64,000 nucleotides of DNA, taken from the NCBI GenBank assembly GCA_003152315.1, contig PLZV01000036.1:1-64000 (forward strand), read 5' to 3'. The DNA is from Verrucomicrobiota bacterium. Lineage in GTDB: Bacteria > Verrucomicrobiota > Verrucomicrobiia > Palsa-1439. The notes under the pieces were generated by a model, which was not told the DNA's origin, ran no database searches, and saw only the letters and a program-made list of their open reading frames with translations. The translations under genes were made by a program, and so were the position numbers. Shown here piece by piece: positions 45,519-60,579 of this stretch (its first letter is position 1; each line of letters begins with the position of its first letter).

Positions 45519-47549
45519 ATGCCAGTTGATACCACAAAGATTCGCACGGTAGCCATTGTCGGACATGCCTCCAGCGGCAAGACTTCCCTGGTCGACGCCG
45601 TGCTGTTCATCTCCAAGGTTGTGAACACCCACGGTCGCGTCGCCAACGGAACCAGTGCCGCCGATTGTCTCCCGGATGAACTCGAACGCAAGATCACCAT
45701 TCACGCCAAGTCCTTCCACTGCCGGTGGCAGGGCCACTCGATCACTTTGCTCGACACGCCGGGCTTCGCCGACTTTTTCGGCGACACACTGGCCGCAGTC
45801 CGCGCCGCCGACGCGGCCATTGTTGTCATTGACGGCGTGGGCGGCGTCGAAGTCGGCGCGCGTCGCATCTGGAAGATGCTGGACGAAATGCAGAAACCAC
45901 GCCTCGTGTTTGTCAACAAACTCGACAAGGAGAATAGTGACTTTTTCCGTTGCGTGGAGCAGATCCGCAGCGCGTTCGGAAAAAACTGCATTCCGTTCGA
46001 ATTGCCGGTCGGCCAGGAAACGGGTTTCTCGAAGGTGTTGAACCTGCGCACGACACCCGAGGCGGACGTCCCCCACGAACTGCACGATCAGTTCCACAAA
46101 TGCCATGAAAGCCTGGAAGAAGCCGCCGCCGAGCAGGACGATAAGTTGCTCGAAGAGTTTCTCGGCGGCCAGGCGCTCACGCTGGAAGAGATCACGAAGG
46201 GCACCCACGTCGGGGTCGCCCGCGGCACGACCGTGCCGATCTACTGTGGTTGCGCGGAGAAGGAAATCGGCGTGCAAAACTTGCTGGAAGGCGTTACCGC
46301 GTTGTTGCCATCGCCCGTGGATCGTGGCGCGGTGGCCACCGAGGACGGCGGGAGTGTCGAGCCCGTGGCGAACACGCCGTTTAGCGCTTTCGTTTTCAAG
46401 GCGACCGTTGATCCGTACGCGGGACACCTGGCCTACGTGCGGGTGGTTTCGGGCACATTGAAGGCCGATATGGACGTGCTAAATGTCACGCGGGGCGTGA
46501 AGGAACGCATCCCCCAGTTGCTGAGCATGCAGGGCAAGACGCAGACGACCGTCGCGGAGGCCGGCCCAGGCGAAATCGTGGCGCTGGCAAAACTCAAGGA
46601 TACGCATATCAACAACACGCTATGCGATCCGTCCCGGCAGGTGAAATTCCCGCCGATCAAGTTCCCACGACCCGTGATGAGCTATGCCATCCATCCGCAC
46701 ACGACGAAGGATGAAGAGAAAATCAGCATGGCATTGCACCGGTTGACCGAAGAGGACCCGACGTTCCACATGGAACGCAACCCGAACACCAAGGAATTGA
46801 TCATTTCGGGCATGGGGGACCAACACCTCGCGGTCGTGGTGGATAATCTAAAGAAACGGCTCGGCGTCAACGTCGATCTCAGCACACCGAAGGTCGACTA
46901 CAAGGAAACCATCACCTCTCACGGCGACGGCCATTACAAGCACAAGAAACAATCGGGCGGTCACGGCCAGTATGGCGAAGCCTACGTCAAGATCGAGCCT
47001 CACGAGCGCGGCCGGGGTTTTGAGTTTAGCAGTGAAGTGGTCGGCGGCTCCATCCCACGCAACTTCATACCGGCCGTCGAGAAGGGCTGCGTCGAGGGAA
47101 TGCAGGCGGGCGTCGTGGCCGGTTATCCTGTCGTCGATGTGCACGCGATTGTGTACGACGGCTCGTACCACGACGTCGACTCCAACGAAATCAGCTTTAA
47201 GATCGCGGGCCTGCACGCTTTCAAGGAAGCGATGCAAAAAGCCCGACCCGCGCTGCTCGAGCCGATCATGAATATCACCGTCTATGTGCCCGACCAGTAC
47301 ATGGGCGACATCACCGGGGACCTTAACCACCGCCGCGGTCACATTCTCACCGTCGAGACGGCGGACGGCATGCAAGCCATCAAGGCGCAGGTGCCACAGG
47401 CGGAGTTGTTCAAATATGCGAGCGAGTTGCGCTCCATTACGGCGGGTCGCGCCTCGTTCGAGATGGAGTTTTCCCACTACGAACAAGTTCCCCAACATGT
47501 CGCCCAAAAAGTCGTCACCGAAGCCGCCAAGAAAGCCGAGCAGCATTGA
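45519..47549 (+). CDS. EF-G-like translation-factor GTPase (FusA paralogue)
   Basis: 676 residues with all five EF-G domains. G1 is GHASSGKT (15-22; EF-G normally has AHIDAGKT), G2 region ELERKITI, G3 DTPGFADF, G4 NKLD. Domain IV has GGHGQYGEAYVKIEPHERG and GYPVVDVHAIVYDGSYHDVDS; domain V MNITVYVPDQYMGDITGDLNHRRG. Altered G1 and shorter length point to the EF-G-like (FusA2) paralogue seen in several phyla rather than the housekeeping factor. Role could be alternative elongation or ribosome recycling. A TACAAT box (45440-45445) with a ~70-nt leader and GGAG precedes it. Confidence 0.88.
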   Translation: MPVDTTKIRTVAIVGHASSGKTSLVDAVLFISKVVNTHGRVANGTSAADCLPDELERKITIHAKSFHCRWQGHSITLLDTPGFADFFGDTLAAVRAADAAIVVIDGVGGVEVGARRIWKMLDEMQKPRLVFVNKLDKENSDFFRCVEQIRSAFGKNCIPFELPVGQETGFSKVLNLRTTPEADVPHELHDQFHKCHESLEEAAAEQDDKLLEEFLGGQALTLEEITKGTHVGVARGTTVPIYCGCAEKEIGVQNLLEGVTALLPSPVDRGAVATEDGGSVEPVANTPFSAFVFKATVDPYAGHLAYVRVVSGTLKADMDVLNVTRGVKERIPQLLSMQGKTQTTVAEAGPGEIVALAKLKDTHINNTLCDPSRQVKFPPIKFPRPVMSYAIHPHTTKDEEKISMALHRLTEEDPTFHMERNPNTKELIISGMGDQHLAVVVDNLKKRLGVNVDLSTPKVDYKETITSHGDGHYKHKKQSGGHGQYGEAYVKIEPHERGRGFEFSSEVVGGSIPRNFIPAVEKGCVEGMQAGVVAGYPVVDVHAIVYDGSYHDVDSNEISFKIAGLHAFKEAMQKARPALLEPIMNITVYVPDQYMGDITGDLNHRRGHILTVETADGMQAIKAQVPQAELFKYASELRSITAGRASFEMEFSHYEQVPQHVAQKVVTEAAKKAEQH

Positions 47550-47554
47550 CCGTC

Positions 47555-49540
47555 TCAGCGCTTGGGACGATCGAGAACTGTGAGCAGGTTCCCCTCTACG
47601 ACAAGCAGAAAATGCGGTGTGGGATAAACCTCTGCGACGTACGTTTGAAAAAAACCGACGCGACGTGGGCGAGTCGGGTCTGAAATATTATACAAAGCTA
47701 TCTCTGATAGGCCATTTTCAAGGACAAGCGATTCGTCCAGGAATCTTGGTTCGTGATCTCCGTAGCGGCGAAACCAAAGGGCCAGCGGCGACGCGCGATA
47801 CTCGCCAACCAAGTCCCATTCGTGTGGTCGCGGGTGTCGTAGGATGCGCAGCCCCGACATGTTACTAACGCACCAAAGATCACCCCGGTTATTTGCGCAT
47901 CTCTCATTTGGATCATCCAGGAACAACTCTCTTGGCGGCAGGGCGTCCGGGTCGCGCGCCCAGTTGCGTTTATCGAGTAGAAGCTCGGGATGGTCAGGAT
48001 CGAGCGGCTTACCTGGTGTCCAGAAGCCCAGCCCGTTTGAGGACACGTTGGATAATACGATCTGCAACTTCCCTCGATAGATTCTGGCGGATGTGTCCGG
48101 TGGCAACTGGATCTCGTAGCGCGGTTGGGGGTTCGGTCCGTCAGACCAATCGAAGACGTACAGCTTGTGCTCCTTCGCCACCCACTCCTGCAAGTAGGCG
48201 TAACGGCTGACCGTACTTTCCCAGTCCTTGTAGACGTTGACGGATGCGATGGGGAACCGGTCGGGTGGCGGTTCCACTGTCGTACGACTGGTAACCTGTA
48301 GCGGGCCATGGCTCGGCCACGATAGCCTCAAGCGCAGCAAATCCGCATTCCAGTTGTCGTCCGGATCTTTCCTATTGGTGTTATGGCTGAGTGTCAAAAC
48401 CAATTCCCCATTCTCGTCCATAGCAAAGCCAATGATGCGCCCGGACTCGTTCAACTTGTCGGATAGATTGGCTTGCTGAAGATCCTTGATTTGGCCGTGC
48501 TCATCGAGGCGAAAGGATGCAACTTGCAGGCGCCAGGTTGTGGACGGGTGCCTGTGCCGAATTACTGACACCGTGGAAATGGACGTTGCTGACACCGCGT
48601 AAAACTGATCGCCCTGGTTCGCCACTAATACTCTCGGATACCAGAAATTCTCATCGTGGAAGATCTCCTTTTGGTCGCGCACGACGAGGGAGTTTCCGAC
48701 TTCTCCCAACGCGAGGCCGAGCAACGTCAACACGACGAGGGCCACTGTCCACGCGAGTTGTTTGTGGCCGAGCCGGATGACCCGCTCCCGCGTGCAGCAG
48801 ATTAGCGCCGTCCCGACGCAGGTGACCAGTCCCAGCACCGTCAGCACCACAAACGGCCAGCCAAAGCCGAGCCACGAACGGTCGGTGGAAGAACTGGCAG
48901 ACTCCAGTGTGCTCCACCAATTCGGATGCAAGAATTGGAGCCGGGACGAGATTAGCGGAGCGACGAGCCAGACGATCAGCGCCAAGCAACCGACGAGCGT
49001 GCTAGCCAGCATCTGGCGCGTGACTACCGCCGCGGTGAACCCGATTACGTAACCAACCACAAACACCCAGGTCCAGAGAAGCGCCCAACGAATCGTTGTT
49101 ACCGTGGTAGGCGCGTCCCAACCTCTCTCGAACGCGCCCCAATGCAACATGGAGAAATCCCAGGCAGCCCCAACGAACAATACCAGCAACAGGACCGCCA
49201 CCCCCGTCTTCAGTTTGGCCCAAATGACCTGCCGCGCGGAAACAGGCATCGCCAGCAAAAAATGTTCTTCAGCTTTGCCCCAGTCGCGACAAACGGTGTG
49301 GGCGCCGATGACCACTGCGTAGAGCCAGCCCACGGCCACCAAGAGCGCCCACACGAATGGAAATGATTCATGGTCCCGGCTGATCGCGAGAAGGAGCGAT
49401 TCGAGAATGGTCGGCAGGACCCAAAAGATCGCGATGCCGCCGATCAAGGCTTCGCGCGCATCGCGATATTCCTTCCGCGAGAGATTGTTCATCGCGGACC
49501 TCGACGAGAGCGGTCGGGTTGTGACGAGTGACACGTTCAT
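47555..49540 (-). CDS. ABC-2-type permease with large extracytoplasmic beta-propeller-like domain
   Basis: 661 residues from ATG 49540 (ATGA with the upstream permease). About 7 membrane segments fill residues ~15-300, in the ABC-2 order, with AEEHFLLAMPVSARQVIWAK as the permease coupling-type loop. With seven helices the ~350-residue C-terminal part lies outside. It has repeated beta-strand units such as WRLQVASFRLDEHGQIKDLQ, ASVNVYKDWESTVSRYAYLQ and GLRILRHPRPHEWDLVGEYR, resembling a beta-propeller. No cysteine or catalytic pattern is evident. It might sense or bind an external ligand for the exporter. Family not recognised as a whole. Confidence 0.7.
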   Translation of the reverse strand: MNVSLVTTRPLSSRSAMNNLSRKEYRDAREALIGGIAIFWVLPTILESLLLAISRDHESFPFVWALLVAVGWLYAVVIGAHTVCRDWGKAEEHFLLAMPVSARQVIWAKLKTGVAVLLLVLFVGAAWDFSMLHWGAFERGWDAPTTVTTIRWALLWTWVFVVGYVIGFTAAVVTRQMLASTLVGCLALIVWLVAPLISSRLQFLHPNWWSTLESASSSTDRSWLGFGWPFVVLTVLGLVTCVGTALICCTRERVIRLGHKQLAWTVALVVLTLLGLALGEVGNSLVVRDQKEIFHDENFWYPRVLVANQGDQFYAVSATSISTVSVIRHRHPSTTWRLQVASFRLDEHGQIKDLQQANLSDKLNESGRIIGFAMDENGELVLTLSHNTNRKDPDDNWNADLLRLRLSWPSHGPLQVTSRTTVEPPPDRFPIASVNVYKDWESTVSRYAYLQEWVAKEHKLYVFDWSDGPNPQPRYEIQLPPDTSARIYRGKLQIVLSNVSSNGLGFWTPGKPLDPDHPELLLDKRNWARDPDALPPRELFLDDPNERCANNRGDLWCVSNMSGLRILRHPRPHEWDLVGEYRASPLALWFRRYGDHEPRFLDESLVLENGLSEIALYNISDPTRPRRVGFFQTYVAEVYPTPHFLLVVEGNLLTVLDRPKR

Positions 49541-50382
49541 GTTTGCATCCATTTTTGAATCGGCCGGCCCGACTTCCAGCCGACCAACCACACGGGGAGA
49601 ACGATCCACAAGCCGGCTTGCGCCAGAAGTAGCACCGGCAAAAGAGGCGCAAAAACTCCGGGAAACGCGACGACGAGTGGCGAGAGCGGGTTAAGCAGCC
49701 CCGTACAGAAGAGCGCCGCCTGGTAGAGCGTGACGGTTCTTTCGAAATCCCATGATTTTCCGGCGGGGAGTAGTTGTATCAGCCACACGAGCAGCGCGAT
49801 CGTCAGGGAAATCCCGCCAAGCGCCGCGGTGAACTCCTGCCTCGCCCGCGTCAGCAGAAAGAACAAGGGCGTGTACCAACAAGCCAGCGAGATGGTCGCC
49901 ACCAATGCGAAGACGCCGATTGTTTCCAGTGGATGCGCTCCCGTCAGAAGGTGAGAAAGATTCCGGACATTGCTGAAGTTATCGTACGCGAATTCTTTTG
50001 GCACCCGACGAAATCCGCGGCTGGCCATGGCGGCCATGCCCGCCAAGGTTGCGATAACCATCATCCCGGCGAGTTGGGCGAGGCCCATCATCCATTTCGA
50101 GCGCAACACCTGCGCTCGTGAAACCGGCTGCACTGTCAGAAACTCCCAGGTGCGATCCGCGCGCTCGCTCGCGACAGAACCCATGGCCAGAAAGACCACC
50201 ATTACCAAACCGACGGGGCCGTAAATCAACAGAGCCGCTTCACCGTTAGGGATGATTTGTGCGCGCAACAGGCCCGCCAACAGGCCGCTGAGCACAGTCG
50301 TGCCGAGGAAAAACCGCCAGCGCTGTTCCTGCCATTCCTTGCGCAACAACCCGCGGAATATTCTTCGTCTGTTCTCAGGCAT
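49537..50382 (-). CDS. ABC-2-type transporter permease
   Basis: 281 residues from ATG 50382 (an upstream ATG at 50403 is possible). Six membrane segments between residues ~20 and ~275. SVASERADRTWEFLTVQPVSRAQVLRSKWMMG is the conserved ABC-2 coupling region. It forms the membrane channel with its partner at 47555-49540, driven by the ATPase at 50375-51271; the genes overlap by a few bases each, so stoichiometric coupled translation is likely. Substrate unknown; the YtrBCDE and bacitracin-type exporters are the closest functional model. Confidence 0.85.
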   Translation of the reverse strand: MPENRRRIFRGLLRKEWQEQRWRFFLGTTVLSGLLAGLLRAQIIPNGEAALLIYGPVGLVMVVFLAMGSVASERADRTWEFLTVQPVSRAQVLRSKWMMGLAQLAGMMVIATLAGMAAMASRGFRRVPKEFAYDNFSNVRNLSHLLTGAHPLETIGVFALVATISLACWYTPLFFLLTRARQEFTAALGGISLTIALLVWLIQLLPAGKSWDFERTVTLYQAALFCTGLLNPLSPLVVAFPGVFAPLLPVLLLAQAGLWIVLPVWLVGWKSGRPIQKWMQT

Positions 50383-51271
50383 GGGGCGCCTCCCTCCGAC
50401 CAATGACGTATGCCTCGAAGATTTCGTCGAGATTCAAATCGACTTCGCGTACCGGTAGGATTGGGCCGAGCGCGCGACGTGTGGCGGCAACGTCTTCGAC
50501 CGTGACCGCCAACTGGCTGTCGTAGGATTGTATGTCCAGCAAGCCCGCGAGCTTCGCCACGTCTATGCGGTCGGAAGATTGGAAAACGAGGCGTTTGACC
50601 TTTTCCCGCAGTTCGTCCACGGGCGCGCACCGGAGGATCCGTCCGTCGTGCAGGATCGCAACGCGGTCGCAGATGGGCTCGATTTCGTAGAGGAGATGTG
50701 AAGAAAAGAAAACCGTGATGCCCTGGTTCTGGAGATGGCCGATCACGTCGCGCAACAGATCGCGCCGGGCGATGGGATCGAGAGCCAGCGTTGGATCATC
50801 GAGAATGACCAGCTTTGGTCGATGCGCGAGCGCCAGCAAGAGGGCCAGGCGGCTGGTCTGACCCTTGGAAAGCGCGCCGACCTTTTGATCGGGATCGAGG
50901 CGCATTTGTTTGCGCAAGTCTTCCGCGGATGTCGCATCCCAGGCTGGGTAAAAGCGAGCGACCCACTCAATGAGTTCCTTCACCCGCATCCAACTGTACA
51001 TGGTTTGGTTTTCAGCCATGTAGCCGATGCGGCGACGCACCTCGATTGGTTGGACTTGGGGGTCAATGCCCGCCACCGCGCAGCGGCCCGCATCGGGTTG
51101 AAGAAGCCCCAGCAGAATGCGAATCAGCGTGGTCTTGCCGGCGCCGTTCAAACCGAGGAACCCAAAGATTGAACCTGCGGGAACTTCAAGATTCACGTCA
51201 CGCAGAACGTCCTGACCACCGAAGGATTTGCGGAGGCCTTCGATTCGAATGTCAGCAGTGAAGTTGCTCAT
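50375..51271 (-). CDS. ABC transporter ATPase
   Basis: 298 residues. Walker A GLNGAGKTTL (40-49), Q-loop in MAENQTMYSW, signature LSKGQ (134-138) and Walker B VILDDP (155-160), where the usual catalytic Glu is Asp (D158-D159); H-loop in FFSSHLLYEIE. The C-terminal ~85 residues form the small accessory domain of ABC-2 ATPases. It powers the two permeases downstream and is encoded after the GntR regulator with an ATGA overlap. The Asp-for-Glu change may slow hydrolysis. Confidence 0.92.
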   Translation of the reverse strand: MSNFTADIRIEGLRKSFGGQDVLRDVNLEVPAGSIFGFLGLNGAGKTTLIRILLGLLQPDAGRCAVAGIDPQVQPIEVRRRIGYMAENQTMYSWMRVKELIEWVARFYPAWDATSAEDLRKQMRLDPDQKVGALSKGQTSRLALLLALAHRPKLVILDDPTLALDPIARRDLLRDVIGHLQNQGITVFFSSHLLYEIEPICDRVAILHDGRILRCAPVDELREKVKRLVFQSSDRIDVAKLAGLLDIQSYDSQLAVTVEDVAATRRALGPILPVREVDLNLDEIFEAYVIGRREAPHA

Positions 51272-51663
51272 GGCGACCGACCTCCGTTCGTGAGTTTCTC
51301 AATTTCTTCATCCAAAAGTTGGTGCAATTCGGGACGCGAGATTTCAAAGTGAACCGCCTGTGCGGCCGCCTGACCGAGAATCCCCGCGACCTGCTTGAGC
51401 CGCTCCGTTTTCTTCGTCGCGGGTGGCGCGTCGGCGACGAAGGTCCCATCGCCTTGTCTTCGGCTGATCAAACCGTCCCCTTCGAGCAGGATGTAGGCTT
51501 TGAGAACGGTATTCTGATTGACGGGCAGCCGTCTCGCCAACTCGCGCACGCTTGGCAGGCGGTCACCCGCCTGCAGGGTGCCGTTGGCGATTTGGTAGCC
51601 GATCTGATCGACGATCTGCCGATAGATCGGAACGGCGGAACTGCTTTCCAAGCGGATAAACAT
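51268..51663 (-). CDS. GntR-family regulator, YtrA subfamily
   Basis: 131 residues. The winged-helix DNA-binding domain is GDRLPSVRELARRLPVNQNTV and LKAYILLEGDGLISRRQGDGTFV (~38-80), followed by a short ~45-residue helical tail, the hallmark of the YtrA group that lacks a large effector domain. It heads the ABC exporter operon (ATGA to the ATPase gene) and has a palindromic site immediately upstream of its start, so negative autoregulation is likely. Confidence 0.9.
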   Translation of the reverse strand: MFIRLESSSAVPIYRQIVDQIGYQIANGTLQAGDRLPSVRELARRLPVNQNTVLKAYILLEGDGLISRRQGDGTFVADAPPATKKTERLKQVAGILGQAAAQAVHFEISRPELHQLLDEEIEKLTNGGRSP

Positions 51664-51797: not shown

Positions 51798-54530
51798 TTG
51801 ACGATGCGACGATCATTTGATACAATCCTAGAGCATGGTCCAAGGCGAGGCAGCATTCTCGACCATGAGGAATTTGTGCCAACTCCACAACTTATTGACA
51901 CTCCACCGGTAAAGTCCCTCGAAAAGGCGACGACCACAGATGCGGCGCGGGCCAAATCACCGACCGTGGTTGCGCCGACAGAACGGGTGGTAACGGAGGG
52001 GAAGTTCTTTCGCGTCGGCTCACAGAAATTTCATCCTCGTGGTGTGACCTACGGCCCCTTCAAGCCCGACCAGGTCGGTAGTACCTTTCCGAAGCCCGAG
52101 CAGGTGGAACGTGATTTCGTGTTGATGAAGGAACTCAACGCGAATTGCCTGCGCGTCTATCACGTGCCCCCGCGCTGGTTCCTCGACCTCGCGCAGCAGC
52201 ATGGATTGAAAGTGCTCGTTGACTACTATTGGCCCAAACATACGTGCTTTCTGGAAGATCGCGAGACGATCCAGTTTGCGCAGGACGCGACGCGCCGGGC
52301 GGCCGAGGCGCTGAAGGGCCATCCCGCCGTGTTCGCGCTCACATTGGCAAACGAAATCCCGCCGGACATCGCCCGCTGGTACGGCGCGAAGCGCATTGCG
52401 CGGTTCATCGACGGGCTCGCCGCAATCGTCAAGGAGGTGGATCCGCAACGGCTCGTCACCTTCGTAAATTTTCCCACGACGGAGTTTCTGCAGCCAGCCA
52501 GTCTCGATTTCGTAAGCTTCAATGTCTATCTCCATGAACCGCGTCCCTTTGCGAACTACCTCGACCGCTTGCAGAATATTGCGGGCGACAAACCGCTGCT
52601 GCTGGCCGAGTTTGGCGTCGACTCCATGCGGGAGGGCGAGGACGCCAAGGCGCAGATTCTCAGTGGCCATATCGAGATCGCCTTCCGCGCCGGCCTGGCG
52701 GGCATGTTTCTTTTTGCGTTCACGGACGACTGGCATACCGGCGGCCATCAAATTGAGAATTGGTTTTTCGGACTGACCACACGGGACCGCAAACCGCGCG
52801 GTGCGTTTCACGCTGTGGCCGAGCAGTACAAGCGCGCCCCCCACTTCCCGCTGCCGCAATACCCGAAGGTGAGTGTCGTGGTGGCGAGCTACAACGGTGC
52901 GCGGACCCTGCCGTCGTGCCTTGATTCGCTCACGCACCTGAATTATCCGAATTACGAGATCCTGCTCGTGGATGACGGTTCGACGGACGACACGGCGCGC
53001 GTCGCGACCCACTACCCCACAGTGCGTGCGATCCATCAGCCGAACATGGGGTTGAGCGCCGCGCGCAATACCGGCATCCAGGCCGCCACGGGGGAGATCG
53101 TCTCGTTTACCGACAGTGATTGCCGCGCCGATGAAGACTGGCTGTACTACCTTGTCGGGGATTTGCTTAAGACCGACGCCTGCGCGATCGGCGGCCACAA
53201 TTTTCCGCCGCCTGAGGACAGTCCCACCGCCGGCTGTGTCGCGGTTTCACCGGGCGGCCCGGCGCACGTGATGCTTGACGACCGCAGCGCGGAGCACATT
53301 CCCGGCTGTAACATGGCGTTTTGGAGATGGGCGCTCGAGGAAGCGCACGGGTTCGACGCGCAGTTTCGCGCGGCGGGTGACGACGTGGACATTTGTTGGC
53401 GGTTGCTCCAGCGGGGCCGCAAGATTGCGTTTTCCCACGCGGGGTTTGTCTGGCATTACCGTCGCAACACCATTCAGGCCTACCTGAAGCAGCAGCGCGG
53501 TTACGGCGTCGCGGAGTCCATGTTGCGCCGGAAACATCCGGAGTACTTCAACAGCCTCGGCGGGATGCGCTGGCGCGGTCGCATTTACAGCCCGTCGAAG
53601 ATTGCGGGGTTCTTCGGCAAATTTGTGATTTACCATGGCACCTTTGGCAGCGCGCTTTTCCAGACGCTGTACACGCCAGAACCCAGCGGACTATTGACGG
53701 TCTTGACGAGCCTGGAATGGCATGTTTTATTTACGGTGGGTGCGTTCCTGCTCGCGACGGTCTGGCCGGCCTTGTGGCCGTTGCCCGTGTTGACGGTGCT
53801 CGCGAGCCTGGCCATGGCGACGGCCGCCGCGGTGCGCGTGGAGTTGCCGCCGTGGCAGACGCGCTGGTGGTCGCGGCCGCTGGTGGCGATTTTGTACCTG
53901 TTGCAGCCGATTGTGCGCGGGTGGCCGAGATACGGTCGGCGGCTGCGCCGCTCCGAAACGCCGGTCGCGGCGCGCGAAGCCGTGCGCGCCCTGGCGGCAC
54001 AGCATGAGGGACTGGGTTCCGTGCATACGCTCAATTATTGGAACGAAAAGAGCATCGAGCGCTTCACATTCCTGGAAGCGCTACTGGAGTTGCTCGATCG
54101 CGATCAATGGCAGTCGCGCGCCGACAGCGGTTGGGATGAATTTGATGTGACCATCTACGGCGACCGCTTCAGCAAGGTGCTCGTGAAGACCGTGTCGGAG
54201 AACCACGGCGGCGAGAAGCGCCTATTGCGGGCGCGCCTCGAAGGTGGCTGGACACTGCTCGGAAAGATGTCCTTCTTTGGGGTGGTGCTCGGCATGTGCC
54301 TCGCGTCACGATTGTGGTGGTCGCTGGCGTTGCCGGAGTCGAAAGTTCCCATGTGGATGCTGTGGGGTTTTACAGGAGTGCCGCTGGTGCTGATTGGTCT
54401 CTGGGTGGGATACCTTCACCTGCGCACGCGCCGGAGTGTGCGGCTGGCGACAGCGGTGTTGGATCTCTGTGCCAGGGACCTGAAGTTGATCAAACTCAAC
54501 GCACCAAAGAAGTTTGTGAAACCCGATTAG
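51798..54530 (+). CDS. Fusion of glycoside-hydrolase-like TIM barrel and GT2 glycosyltransferase
   Basis: 910 residues. After a ~60-residue low-complexity N-tail comes a clan GH-A-like barrel (~65-345): FHPRGVTYGPF, RVYHVPPRWFLDLA, acid/base E186 in LTLANEIPPD and nucleophile E271 in PLLLAEFGVDS. Residues ~355-620 are a GT2 domain: VSVVVASYNGARTLPSCLDS, LLVDDGSTDDTA and FTDSDC (metal motif), RLLQRGRKIAFSHAGFVWHY. Two pairs of membrane helices (~640-700, ~810-865) flank a soluble C-terminal part. It could make and trim a polymer. Start codon uncertain (weak ribosome site). The stop overlaps the convergent GT4-like gene. Confidence 0.8.
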   Translation: MTMRRSFDTILEHGPRRGSILDHEEFVPTPQLIDTPPVKSLEKATTTDAARAKSPTVVAPTERVVTEGKFFRVGSQKFHPRGVTYGPFKPDQVGSTFPKPEQVERDFVLMKELNANCLRVYHVPPRWFLDLAQQHGLKVLVDYYWPKHTCFLEDRETIQFAQDATRRAAEALKGHPAVFALTLANEIPPDIARWYGAKRIARFIDGLAAIVKEVDPQRLVTFVNFPTTEFLQPASLDFVSFNVYLHEPRPFANYLDRLQNIAGDKPLLLAEFGVDSMREGEDAKAQILSGHIEIAFRAGLAGMFLFAFTDDWHTGGHQIENWFFGLTTRDRKPRGAFHAVAEQYKRAPHFPLPQYPKVSVVVASYNGARTLPSCLDSLTHLNYPNYEILLVDDGSTDDTARVATHYPTVRAIHQPNMGLSAARNTGIQAATGEIVSFTDSDCRADEDWLYYLVGDLLKTDACAIGGHNFPPPEDSPTAGCVAVSPGGPAHVMLDDRSAEHIPGCNMAFWRWALEEAHGFDAQFRAAGDDVDICWRLLQRGRKIAFSHAGFVWHYRRNTIQAYLKQQRGYGVAESMLRRKHPEYFNSLGGMRWRGRIYSPSKIAGFFGKFVIYHGTFGSALFQTLYTPEPSGLLTVLTSLEWHVLFTVGAFLLATVWPALWPLPVLTVLASLAMATAAAVRVELPPWQTRWWSRPLVAILYLLQPIVRGWPRYGRRLRRSETPVAAREAVRALAAQHEGLGSVHTLNYWNEKSIERFTFLEALLELLDRDQWQSRADSGWDEFDVTIYGDRFSKVLVKTVSENHGGEKRLLRARLEGGWTLLGKMSFFGVVLGMCLASRLWWSLALPESKVPMWMLWGFTGVPLVLIGLWVGYLHLRTRRSVRLATAVLDLCARDLKLIKLNAPKKFVKPD

Positions 54531-55696
54531 CGCGGCACCGGCAGGTCACACGCCAGCAACATCGCCCGCAACACCTTGTCCGAGTCGAAATACTCTTCGG
54601 CAATCCGTCGCGCCACCCGGCAGTTGCGCTCGTAATCCTTTCCGATTTCCTCGACGGCGCGCACGACGTCATCCGCCGTCTGGAAGGCAAAGAGTCCCTC
54701 GCCACACGGCAGGAATTCGCTGAAGCCGGTGTCCTGGACAATCACTGGCTTGCCCGAGGCGAGATACGCCACCGTGCGGTCGCTGAACCAACCGCAGCGT
54801 GTCTTTACGTACCCGTCCTTGGCGACGCTGAATTCGCCGCGGGAGTGGCCCAGGTAATTGAGATAGGCGTTCACACTTCGCGTTGCGGCCAGCGCCTCCG
54901 TGATGATCCAGCCCGCCGCTTCCAGTTGTTGCGCGGGAGCGCCGACACCACCGAGGGCGATCTCGAAGGCTTCACCCGCGCGCTGGGGGAGATCGAGGAA
55001 CTTGAGCATCTCGACGTTCTTTTGCCCGTACGTCACTCCCTGATAGTCGACGCTGCCATACGCGGCCCAACTCATGACGGTGGTGAACCGTTTGGCTTCA
55101 GGCGTGTATCGCGGCTGTATCAATTCCCGGGCCAGTGGCTGGCGAAACGGCTGCCAGCGTAGTCCGTGCGTCGGAATTGGACAATCTGGTTTGCCGATGC
55201 GTTCCCCGAAAGTGAAGTGACAATTGAAATCATAAGGCGACGCATAACCGGCGCAGGAGGTGTTGGGGGTCGGCGACATTTTAAATTGCGTGAATCCCGG
55301 GTCGATATCGACAAAGATTCGCTTGCGACAATCGCGCAACTCCTCAAGCCAGGTTGTCGAGGAGGCGCACAGGATGAAATCTGCCCGGCCGCACAACGTC
55401 TTCACTTCGTCACGTTGCAGGCCGTGCCATTTCCCCGTGGCGTCCACGTAACACCAGCGCCGGATGCCGATGTGCTCGAAAAATGGCAGGATCTGGCCGA
55501 GCCCATAGGTCGGATCATCGCTCATGGTATTGGTTCGCGGGTCGTAACACGCCTGTTCCCAGCCATGGTGCTCGAGAAAGACGACTTCGTAACCGAGCTT
55601 CGCGAGGCCCGCGAGGAAGTGATACTGCGACAACAAATGGCCCCCGAGCGGATAACGGGTCAGATAGCCCGCCACAATGGCGACGGGACGGCTCAC
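54527..55696 (-). CDS. GT4-like (GT-B fold) protein, paralogue B
   Basis: 389 residues. The N-terminal part starts VAIVAGYLTRYPLGGHLLSQ and has a VVFLEHHGWEQACYDP motif; the C-terminal part has GYVKTRCGWFSDRTVAYLASGKPVIVQDTGFSEFLPCGEGLFAFQT, the donor-side pattern of GT-B enzymes though without a canonical EX7E. It is about one third similar by eye to the next gene and shares VKxRxGWFS. Its start overlaps the paralogue stop (ATGA). Probably a cytoplasmic glycosyltransferase; specificity unknown. Confidence 0.7.
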   Translation of the reverse strand: MSRPVAIVAGYLTRYPLGGHLLSQYHFLAGLAKLGYEVVFLEHHGWEQACYDPRTNTMSDDPTYGLGQILPFFEHIGIRRWCYVDATGKWHGLQRDEVKTLCGRADFILCASSTTWLEELRDCRKRIFVDIDPGFTQFKMSPTPNTSCAGYASPYDFNCHFTFGERIGKPDCPIPTHGLRWQPFRQPLARELIQPRYTPEAKRFTTVMSWAAYGSVDYQGVTYGQKNVEMLKFLDLPQRAGEAFEIALGGVGAPAQQLEAAGWIITEALAATRSVNAYLNYLGHSRGEFSVAKDGYVKTRCGWFSDRTVAYLASGKPVIVQDTGFSEFLPCGEGLFAFQTADDVVRAVEEIGKDYERNCRVARRIAEEYFDSDKVLRAMLLACDLPVPR

Positions 55697-56844
55697 GCAC
55701 CCGCCCTGGTGATGAGGTCGGCAAGTACCTGCCGCGCGTCGAACATCTTTGCGGCCAACTGACGCGCGGCGCGGGAATGCGCGGCGTAGTCGGTGTTGAC
55801 CGCCTCAATGCCCCTGAGGGCTTCGTCGATGGTCTGGTAAGCGAACAGTCCATGTCCCGTCGGATAACTGTTGCTCCAGCCGGTATCCTGCAATACGCAC
55901 GGACGACCCAGCGCCAGGTAACACGCGCTCCGGCAACTGAACCAACCGCTACGGGATTTGACGTAGCCTTCTTTCGCGACGCTCCATTCACCTTTCGAGC
56001 GGCGCAGGTATTCGCGGTACGTCCAGGGATCGGGCAAATACCCGGCGGGTTCGATGATCTGCCAGCCCTTTTGCTGCAGCATCTCGGTTGGGCGTTTCAT
56101 GCCCGGGCCCATGCCCATCGCGATCTCGAACTTTTGCGCCGTTCGCCCCGGCAGATCGACGAATTTCAGGAACTCAACGTCCTTCTGTCCCCACGTTTCG
56201 CCGTTGTACTCGCAACTCTTGTACGAAACCCAGTTCATCACCGTCGTGAACACGTCCCGTGGTGGCTCGGCGGGAAGCTCCCACCAGTCGAGCACGATCG
56301 GTTGACGCGTGGGAATCCAGGCGAACCCAACTGCGGGGATGCGGCAATCCGCTGCGCCGATATTCTCGGCAAAGGTAAAATGCCGGTCGTGCGCGCGGAT
56401 GCGGTCGATCACATCCTGTTTACCCGAGGCAAGCGCGACCTGGGTAAACATCGGGTCGGAGTCGAGAAAAACCTTGCACGAGATCGCGAGATATTCGGGC
56501 CGCAGCCACCCGCAGCCGGAAACGTTCAAATAGAGGTCCGCCGTCGCGCAAATCTCCTTCGCGGCCGCTTCCGTGTGGCCGTGGTAGCTCGCGTCCGGCG
56601 CGCTACGGTAAATCCAGCGGTCGGCGAGCCCGAGTTTCTCCATGACCCCGCGAAGATAGTCGACATTGTAACTGGCGTCCGCGGAGACGGTATTCTTGAT
56701 CGGGTCATACGGCCACATCTCCGTGTCTTCGAGGTAAAACACATCGTGTCCCAACTGGCGGAAGCCTTCAACGTACTGCAAATAATCCCACGCGACGCCG
56801 CCGAAAGCGTATTGCCCGACCAATCCCGTGACCACGATGCGCAT
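55693..56844 (-). CDS. GT4-like (GT-B fold) protein, paralogue A
   Basis: 383 residues from ATG 56844 (frame open 12 codons further). N-terminal RIVVTGLVGQYAFGGVAWDY and HDVFYLEDTEMWPYDP; C-terminal GYVKSRSGWFSCRSACYLALGRPCVLQDTGWSNSYPTGHGLFAYQT, parallel to paralogue B. The tail RAARQLAAKMFDARQVLADL resembles the end of GT4 enzymes. It lacks the EX7E pair. Preceded by a good promoter with only 7 nt to the ATG and no Shine-Dalgarno. It forms a two-gene unit with paralogue B. Confidence 0.7.
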   Translation of the reverse strand: MRIVVTGLVGQYAFGGVAWDYLQYVEGFRQLGHDVFYLEDTEMWPYDPIKNTVSADASYNVDYLRGVMEKLGLADRWIYRSAPDASYHGHTEAAAKEICATADLYLNVSGCGWLRPEYLAISCKVFLDSDPMFTQVALASGKQDVIDRIRAHDRHFTFAENIGAADCRIPAVGFAWIPTRQPIVLDWWELPAEPPRDVFTTVMNWVSYKSCEYNGETWGQKDVEFLKFVDLPGRTAQKFEIAMGMGPGMKRPTEMLQQKGWQIIEPAGYLPDPWTYREYLRRSKGEWSVAKEGYVKSRSGWFSCRSACYLALGRPCVLQDTGWSNSYPTGHGLFAYQTIDEALRGIEAVNTDYAAHSRAARQLAAKMFDARQVLADLITRAGA

Positions 56845-56851
56845 CACGGCA

Positions 56852-56880
56852 TTTATAAACTGCTTTTGCACTCGACACAA
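56852..56880 (-). promoter_or_regulatory. Promoter of the GT4-like pair
   Basis: Minus strand: TTGTGT (complement of 56875-56880), 17-nt spacer, TATAAA (complement of 56852-56857), then 7 nt to ATG 56844 with no Shine-Dalgarno. Confidence 0.55.
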
Positions 56881-58404: not shown

Positions 58405-60579
58405 CTACAGCGCGGTTAAAATCTCCGCCGGCGCCTTCTCGATGCGGTCGATGCGGAATTTCTGCGGGCCGGTGTCACCCTTCCAGTCGATGGTGTCGCC
58501 GGCGTGTTTGTTGAGCAGGGCCTGGGCGAGGGCGGCGGGGTAACTGATGATGCCGCGGGCAGGGTCACTGTCCCACGCGCCGAGGATGTAATAGGTGTGT
58601 GATTGCTTCGCGCCGAGGTCGGTGACGGTAACGCTGGTGCCGATGCTGACGAGATCGGTCTTGGCGTCGGCGAAGTCGGTGGCCTGCGCGCGTGAGAGGA
58701 GGCTTTCGAGTTCGGCGCGGCGGCGCATCAGGAGTTTTTGCGTGTCCTTGGCGGCCTTGAACTCAAAATTCTCGCGCAAGTCCCCGTAACTGCGGGCCAA
58801 ACCGATCTCCTTGCTATTCGCTGGAATCTTCTTCTGCACGATGTCCTCGAGCTCGGCCATGCGTTTGTGGTAACTGGCCCACGAGACGATAATCGGCTGC
58901 TCCTTGACTGTTTTCGAGACGAGGGACTCCTTTACGAATGGGTGTTCCTTGACGATGCGCGCCATCAGCGAACGGCGGTCGAGTTCCTCGATTGCGCCGC
59001 TGGCCAGGATCAGGCGCGTCAGGTTGCGGACGGTTTCGGTATCAGCCTCGGCGAGGAGATCGGCCACCAATTCTCCCTCCTCAAAAAGCACATCACGGAG
59101 CTTCTTATTGGCGGACTTGGTGGGCGCCGACTCAATGGCTTCCACGACTGCAAGCAGGAGCGCGGGAGTCTGGAAGTCGTCGAGCCAGGGGTAGGCCTTG
59201 CGGGAGGCCGGTGTGGAGACATTGCGGCAGATCCAGCACAACAACTCGGCGCCCGCAGTTTGATTGTGCACCCATTGCTTGATGGCGCCGGCATGCTGGC
59301 CCAGCAGATCGGGAATCTCATCGAGAACTTTTGTGGAGAATCGATTGAATTCCTTGAACAGGCGGTCGGGCGCGGAAGTTTTGAGGACCGCGAGCACGCG
59401 TTTCTGAGCGGACGTACTCAAGTCGTCCAGCAATGCCGATAGATTGTAGATCCCCGCAAGCAAGTTGGTGAGAAAGGCGCCGGCGTCCTCGACGGTTGTT
59501 TGCCGGCGGCGACCGAGTTGTTCGAGGACGACAGCAGCTTCGATGCGCTCGGGCTGGCGGCTGATCGGTGTCTTGTTCAAGGCGTCCAGCAGCGCATCCT
59601 GAAACTCCTGGATCAGGAGGTCGGCGTTGTCCATTTCATCGACACGCTTGAGGAATTCCCGGGCGACAGCGGTCTTCTGGATGAGGCCCTTTGCGGTTCG
59701 GAAGTCTTCGAGGATTTCATCCTGTTGCGAGACCGGCGCGGTGCGCAGCACAATGGGGTCGGTCTTTTTCACGGCGAGGTCGAAATGCGGATCCTTCTTC
59801 GCCAGCTTGCGGACATTGTCCCACCACTTCTTCCAATGATCCGTGGGCACAACCGAGCCCGCGAGCATGGCTTCGATGCGATCAGCAGTCGTGGAGCGAT
59901 TGAGGCTGACGAGCGCCAGGCGAAGAAGGGCGACGGGGTCTTCGGTGCTGAGACGCTTGAGACCGTCAAGGTCGGTCAATTTGCGGACTTCAACATGTTC
60001 ATGGCTCACCGGTGTGAGGCTTGTTGCGGCATACGCGAGTTGCATTGAGTGGGAAGGGTTGTGCGCAAAACCAACGACGATCTGTCCCAGAGTGGTATCG
60101 AAGGTCTTAACACGGCCAAAGCCCCAACTCTTGTGCTGGCAAAACGCGTCCGGTTGGAGAGCCAGCAGGGTTTCGATTCGGGTTAGCGCTGTCGGAAGCG
60201 GCGTGCGATTGTGATCGAGCTCGGCAACGGTGAGGATGGTTTTCAGACGCGGATCTTTTTCATGGATCTCGCTGAGCGCTTCGGTTATTTCGGCTCGGAG
60301 CTGTTTGTCGAGTGGGTGCGCTTCTGTTTGCAACTTAAGGGCATACAACCATTCACGGTGCTTACCTGCGGCCTTGATACTCTCGGCGATAAGCGAAGCC
60401 AACTCCGCGGCCAGTGCGTGCTGGCCAGCGTCCGCAAATTCTTTCACAAGCAGGAGCAAGAATTCGGGTTGGTCAGTTAATTGCTCCGCTAATTCAAGCC
60501 ACAGGGCTTGAGCGTTGTCCCAGTCCTTTTGGGATAGGAGGGTTGTGAGTTGCTGGTGGTGTTTTTGGGTCGAACTCAT
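58405..60579 (-). CDS. Gre-type transcription factor with long N-terminal helical region
   Basis: 724 residues. The last ~155 residues are Gre-like: the coiled coil MAELEDIVQKKIPANSKEIG then LARSYGDLRENFEFKAAKDT, with the tip Asp and Glu (GDLREN) needed for transcript cleavage, and the C-terminal FKBP-like domain (SIGTSVTVTDLGAKQSHTYY, GDTIDWKGDTGPQKFRIDRI). The first ~560 residues are helical repeats without a recognised domain. Ordinary GreA/GreB have ~158 residues. It should bind RNA polymerase secondary channel and rescue arrested complexes; the large N-terminal region may recruit other partners. Divergent from the Wza-like gene. Confidence 0.88.
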   Translation of the reverse strand: MSSTQKHHQQLTTLLSQKDWDNAQALWLELAEQLTDQPEFLLLLVKEFADAGQHALAAELASLIAESIKAAGKHREWLYALKLQTEAHPLDKQLRAEITEALSEIHEKDPRLKTILTVAELDHNRTPLPTALTRIETLLALQPDAFCQHKSWGFGRVKTFDTTLGQIVVGFAHNPSHSMQLAYAATSLTPVSHEHVEVRKLTDLDGLKRLSTEDPVALLRLALVSLNRSTTADRIEAMLAGSVVPTDHWKKWWDNVRKLAKKDPHFDLAVKKTDPIVLRTAPVSQQDEILEDFRTAKGLIQKTAVAREFLKRVDEMDNADLLIQEFQDALLDALNKTPISRQPERIEAAVVLEQLGRRRQTTVEDAGAFLTNLLAGIYNLSALLDDLSTSAQKRVLAVLKTSAPDRLFKEFNRFSTKVLDEIPDLLGQHAGAIKQWVHNQTAGAELLCWICRNVSTPASRKAYPWLDDFQTPALLLAVVEAIESAPTKSANKKLRDVLFEEGELVADLLAEADTETVRNLTRLILASGAIEELDRRSLMARIVKEHPFVKESLVSKTVKEQPIIVSWASYHKRMAELEDIVQKKIPANSKEIGLARSYGDLRENFEFKAAKDTQKLLMRRRAELESLLSRAQATDFADAKTDLVSIGTSVTVTDLGAKQSHTYYILGAWDSDPARGIISYPAALAQALLNKHAGDTIDWKGDTGPQKFRIDRIEKAPAEILTAL

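Follow-up and report, generated by a model that had tools for sequence, protein, structure and literature searches.

A clan GH-A barrel fused to a GT2 glycosyltransferase in Verrucomicrobiota, a possible cytoplasmic oligosaccharide synthase

The fusion gene and its domains

The window considered here, i.e., the whole 64,000-nucleotide stretch of Verrucomicrobiota DNA that was analysed, has at 51798-54530, on its plus strand, one open frame that encodes 910 amino acids if translation begins at the TTG at 51798. The ATG at 51804 is the likely start, with the TTG as the alternative, which gives a protein of 908 amino acids (51804..54530). Residue numbers follow this ATG, and the two glutamates called E186 and E271 in the initial annotation are thus E184 and E269. 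As that annotation had proposed, a glycoside hydrolase barrel and a GT2 glycosyltransferase share this one frame: Pfam places Glyco_hydro_2_C at residues 90-343 (E 1.9e-14) and Glycos_transf_2 (PF00535) from residue 357 (E 2.5e-30) in the same chain. The barrel spans residues 57-345 (51972..52838) and is joined by a linker of about 10 residues to the GT2 domain, at residues 354-600 (52863..53603). Further downstream are a first membrane hairpin (residues ~633-677, 53700..53834; helices 637-653 and 659-677 in the model), an alpha/beta domain without a family match that is predicted to be cytoplasmic (residues 721-816, 53964..54251), and a second hairpin (residues ~817-873, 54252..54422), recognized by hydropathy, charge and the full-length model. 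These four hydrophobic segments account for the two pairs of membrane helices described earlier, and the N-terminus has no hydrophobic segment, in agreement with the reported lack of a signal peptide before the barrel. Modelled at full length, the protein yields a medium-quality structure (pLDDT 69.7) in which the pocket-to-pocket geometry is uncertain.

Other genes were also noted in the window. Divergent from the fusion gene, the minus-strand region 47555-51663 has in a row the genes for a GntR regulator, an ABC ATPase, an ABC-2 permease and a membrane protein of 684 aa that Pfam does not match. The plus-strand gene at 45519-47549 specifies a 676-aa EF-G-like GTPase that has the complete set of EF-G domains and may be an EF-G paralogue, and a 724-aa protein at 58405-60579 (minus strand) ends in a complete GreA/GreB factor of 160 residues, preceded by 560 residues without a Pfam match.

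The barrel: fold and catalytic residues

Modelled alone from 28 sequences, the barrel is predicted with confidence (pLDDT 90.4, pTM 0.91) and displays the clan GH-A signature, namely a (beta/alpha)8 barrel with an N-E pair ending beta-4 and a glutamate at beta-7. E184 (codon 52353..52355), the presumed acid/base, directly follows the strand 176-183, while E269 (codon 52608..52610), the presumed nucleophile, lies within the strand 265-270; inspection of the codons places them in N-E-I and A-E-F contexts, respectively. Both glutamates, at the positions first reported for them, are invariant in all 60 members of the family, down to the most divergent, as are their clan GH-A partners R117, N183, N240 and W310; at Y242, members have either Y or F. 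More generally, 23 of the 27 near-invariant barrel residues map to the catalytic face, at strand ends and loops (Fisher p 1e-6).

The top solved structure is LaGH157, a GH157 beta-1,3-glucanase (9fz9/9g4n; E 5e-19, TM 0.85, ~20% identity) whose structure was determined with laminarin oligosaccharides, and a profile alignment pairs E269 with LaGH157 E224, the residue mutated in entry 9g4n. Next come GH2 beta-glucuronidases (TM ~0.8). Both share the fold and the two catalytic glutamates with the fusion barrel, but the solved GH157 and GH2 enzymes have no transferase domain, and the fusion protein lacks the GH2 accessory domains: Pfam finds neither the N-terminal sugar-binding nor the Ig-like domain of GH2, and residues 1-56 are unconserved and modelled with low confidence. 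At the profile level, the GH2 TIM-barrel family PF02836 matches 27 of 28 members and that of the GH72 glucanosyltransferases, a transglycosylase family, 26 of 28 (best E 3e-11). GH157, GH158 and GH72 enzymes act on beta-1,3-glucans, whereas GH2 enzymes act on uronides and galactosides, so the substrate of the barrel cannot be read from these matches. Fold, glutamates and conserved pocket face bear out the clan GH-A assignment of the initial annotation. Of the two outcomes that would have spoken against it, neither was encountered, as the confident model retains a conserved catalytic face and the nearest families are active glycosidases or transglycosidases. Judging from sequence and model, the barrel is very probably an active retaining enzyme.

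The GT2 domain

The GT2 motifs DDGS, DxD and DDxD are present in 60/60 members, with invariant aspartates in the DDGS, DSD/DDD-type and GDDVD motifs. The QxxRW motif is missing from the GT2 domain of all 60; the corresponding region holds a conserved QQxGYG instead (G568 in 59/60), and the QxxRW strings found in some members fall in the barrel or, in one species, past the first hairpin. The closest named GT2 family is MftF (TIGR03965; E 1e-47 over residues 352-585), with a score of 163 bits against a curated cut-off of 280. At 470 aa, MftF is too short to hold such a barrel, and its acceptor is mycofactocin; it produces short beta-1,4-glucan chains of up to nine glucoses (PMC7491314), so the fusion GT2 may also make short chains. 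A processive, BcsA-like synthase was considered and rejected, given the lack of QxxRW in the GT2 domain and the presence of four membrane segments, none of which is found in one family, f3. Since f3 members combine barrel and GT2 without any membrane segment and no GT2 domain has QxxRW, the "processive-type" label first given to this domain, whose nearest named family MftF is matched below cut-off, is not supported.

Membrane topology

Membrane segments were assigned by hydropathy and charge only. The two hairpins follow the positive-inside rule, with a mean of 10.0 and 9.0 lysines plus arginines on the GT2 side versus 0.6-0.7 in the short loops, and no helix separates the barrel from the GT2 domain. 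The members of family f3 (L062-L069, 684-734 aa) keep barrel and GT2, together with an apparent remnant of the C-terminal domain, and show no membrane segment by hydropathy. GT2 enzymes use cytoplasmic nucleotide sugars. Together with the short linker, the missing signal peptide, the charge distribution and the f3 forms, this leads us to predict, with little doubt, that both active sites face the cytoplasm, as already suspected from the window alone; the barrel itself would almost certainly be cytoplasmic. A periplasmic barrel was discarded on the basis of the same topology signals and of the f3 forms.

Distribution and inheritance

A pattern-based search of 84,980 species genomes recovered 27 relatives with the whole fusion, all of them Verrucomicrobia and 41-83% identical. 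The survey of other genomes advised at the outset thus shows that the fusion recurs, and, as it is also present near full length in 41 of 57 related genomes by a count of the match table, it is not a chance product. Several families among these 57 genomes are without it, and in an even draw across the phylum, on whose genomes the systematic searches were centred, it was found in 27 of 289 genomes. Some genome matches contain internal stops; when extracted, their frames proved open across almost the entire matched stretch. None of the 57 related genomes holds a second full-length copy, no member with barrel and GT2 split was seen, and no plasmid copy covering 80% of barrel plus GT2 was found. 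In a tree built from barrel plus GT2, the labels of the families require the fewest possible changes, hence inheritance is mainly vertical. The gene is thus single-copy and mainly vertically inherited; the idea of a horizontally acquired capsule gene was dropped in view of the one full-length copy per genome and of the minimal label changes on the tree. An extra N-terminal stretch of 340 residues in one member (L047) is of low complexity and arginine-rich, and was judged to be upstream read-through rather than a domain.

Genomic neighbourhood

Among mechanically called ORFs, a half ABC exporter resembling MsbA and NdvA lies directly downstream of the fusion gene, on the same strand, in seven families (f1, f4, f6, f7, f10, f13 and f20); f1 is the family of the window itself, and its adjacent exporter is found at locus L010. 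The genome of the window has only five genes for transporters of this class, so that the arrangement would hardly recur by chance in seven families. These exporters are 34-73% identical to one another and match both MsbA and glucan-exporter models, in no case above cut-off, so they do not reveal their cargo. In four of the families (f1 at L010, f4, f6 and f10), the exporter is followed by CgeB-like glycosyltransferases. The window has two of these on the minus strand. The first (54527..55696, 389 aa) is convergent with the fusion gene, overlaps its end and shows a weak match to PF13524; its homologues follow the exporter in other families. The second (55693..56880, 395 aa) is 39% identical to the first. 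Elsewhere in the same genome, on contig C57, an orthologue of the L010 exporter (69%) sits beside a third CgeB-like transferase. This transferase family occurs in 31 of 41 carriers of the fusion versus 0 of 16 non-carriers (hypergeometric 9e-8, ignoring kinship), some of the assemblies of the ten carriers without it being incomplete. Many families have no exporter or CgeB-like genes adjacent to the fusion gene. Fusion protein, exporter and CgeB-like transferases probably form one pathway.

HemL, encoded upstream, and a pseudouridine synthase, encoded downstream, were dismissed as partners, being clade-specific and unrelated neighbours; ORFs of 1179-1187 aa opposite the fusion gene (L087, L079) have no domain and were judged spurious. 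Genes at other loci were noted as well. At L110 (12023-14476), an 818-aa protein joins a CgeB-like glycosyltransferase to a GT2 domain; its gene belongs to the same run as those of the GH-GT2 fusion and the ABC exporter, with a methyltransferase gene in between. A CgeB-like gene at L089 (12439-13595) is broken across two frames, perhaps through a frameshift or an assembly error. Finally, a 1120-aa protein in an f2 genome (L088, 5367-8726) adjoins the GH-GT2 gene and combines a GH18-like domain, a polysaccharide deacetylase and a PgaC/NodC-like GT2; other carriers also have GT2-matching ORFs of ~1120-1140 aa. This triple fusion likewise joins a GH to a GT2 domain, but with a chitinase-like GH18, a deacetylase and a different type of GT2.

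Comparison with known synthases

No description of this GH-GT2 fusion was found in the open-licence literature. The published fusion closest in layout is that of the Pseudomonas proteins "Orphan" and NdvB, in which an N-terminal TIM-barrel glycosidase or transglycosylase is likewise joined to a GT2 domain; there, however, the barrel is periplasmic and helices separate the domains (PMC10237404). Orphan/NdvB possess a GH17 barrel, a signal peptide and a BcsA-like processive GT2, whereas the protein described here has a GH2/GH157-like barrel joined directly to an MftF-like GT2, and neither a GH17 match nor a signal peptide was detected in it. The cyclic glucan synthase Cgs offers a different parallel: transferase and GH-type domains are carried by one membrane protein, its soluble domains are all cytoplasmic and its product leaves through an ABC exporter, Cgt (PMC10901819), as proposed here for the fusion. 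The folds differ, Cgs being built from GT84 and GH144/GH94 domains and the fusion from a GT2 and a GH-A barrel; only GT2-type and GH2_C domains score above Pfam cut-offs in the latter, with no GT84 or GH94. At 908 aa, it is also much smaller than Cgs and has two hairpins instead of six helices. A cyclic product is a feature of Cgs and, for the fusion, no more than a possibility. The protein belongs to neither group.

Proposed function and alternatives

Our tentative preference is for a cytoplasmic oligosaccharide synthase in which the barrel sets the length of the chain, or rejoins it, before ABC export. The protein would be anchored to the cytoplasmic membrane from the inside and have two activities. 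Its GT2 domain would use a cytoplasmic nucleotide sugar to glycosylate an acceptor and so build a short beta-linked chain, which the adjoining barrel would cut or transfer (transfer being slightly more likely), so that its length is set or the chain is re-joined, possibly in cyclised form. CgeB-like glycosyltransferases would then add further sugars, and the MsbA/NdvA-like exporter would carry the completed product, an oligosaccharide or a glycolipid, across the membrane. Among the roles first suggested for the barrel, that of a hydrolase or transglycosylase acting on the nascent chain is the most likely. Whether it transfers rather than plainly hydrolyses appears evenly balanced, and a beta-glucan is a plausible substrate, though a somewhat less than probable one.

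The barrel could instead be a trimming or editing hydrolase that by plain hydrolysis strips wrong or surplus sugars off the GT2 product or cleaves a glycosidic precursor, with neither transfer nor cyclisation. Its full catalytic machinery fits such a role, and its strong similarity to GH2 exo-glycosidases would point to trimming and not to transfer; however, its fold is closest to that of an endo-acting beta-1,3-glucanase, the GH72 transglycosylase profile also matches, and a free hydrolase placed beside the synthase would be a waste unless kept under control, which makes this reading somewhat unlikely. A barrel devoid of activity, which only binds the growing chain or, as had also been suggested, the acceptor, has precedents, since non-catalytic GH domains are known in other proteins. 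It is nevertheless very unlikely here, because the catalytic residues never vary: glutamates and clan partners are kept in 60/60 members, with the invariant residues concentrated on the catalytic face.

Other alternatives concern the product and its route. The GT2 domain might act on an inner-leaflet lipid, with CgeB-like enzymes extending the resulting glycolipid or lipid-linked oligosaccharide, the MsbA-like exporter flipping it, and the barrel moving a glycosyl unit onto the lipid or releasing it. Anchoring to the membrane without a channel would suit this scheme, as would exporters that score as well or better against MsbA than against glucan exporters, and Sinorhizobium has a GT2-transferase-acyltransferase-ABC cluster. 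Yet the soluble f3 form does without anchors and lipid-handling genes are not conserved beside the fusion gene, so that we regard a glycolipid product as quite unlikely. As to a processive polysaccharide synthase with a periplasmic barrel, the domain order is indeed that of the Pseudomonas GH17-GT2 proteins (PMC10237404), but the absence of a signal peptide, of an inter-domain helix and of QxxRW, along with the soluble f3 forms, renders it extremely improbable.

Implications for the Verrucomicrobiota

The oligosaccharide synthase that we favour is encoded by a conserved single-copy gene, often located beside transferases and an exporter, and probably synthesises and trims a glycan of the cell surface that is then exported. 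A few known synthases combine GH and GT domains in a single chain and use them to control chain length or ring closure; the fusion represents a further design, built from other domains, whose glycosidase is apparently intact and faces the cytoplasm. The favoured scheme makes concrete predictions, since the exporter, the partner transferases and the two glutamates are all specified. A bolder and unlikely proposal is that the fusion is a third, unrelated design of cytoplasmic glucan synthase with length control or cyclisation: the MftF-like GT2 and, in the same chain, a transglycosylase barrel of the GH157/GH72 kind would produce a periplasmic glucan of defined and possibly cyclic form, to be exported by the ABC transporter. 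The single, vertically inherited copy in many Verrucomicrobiota families suggests a shared envelope glycan that seems not to have been described; if the bolder proposal is true, such a system would be ancestral in much of the Verrucomicrobiota and the counterpart of the periplasmic glucans of Proteobacteria.
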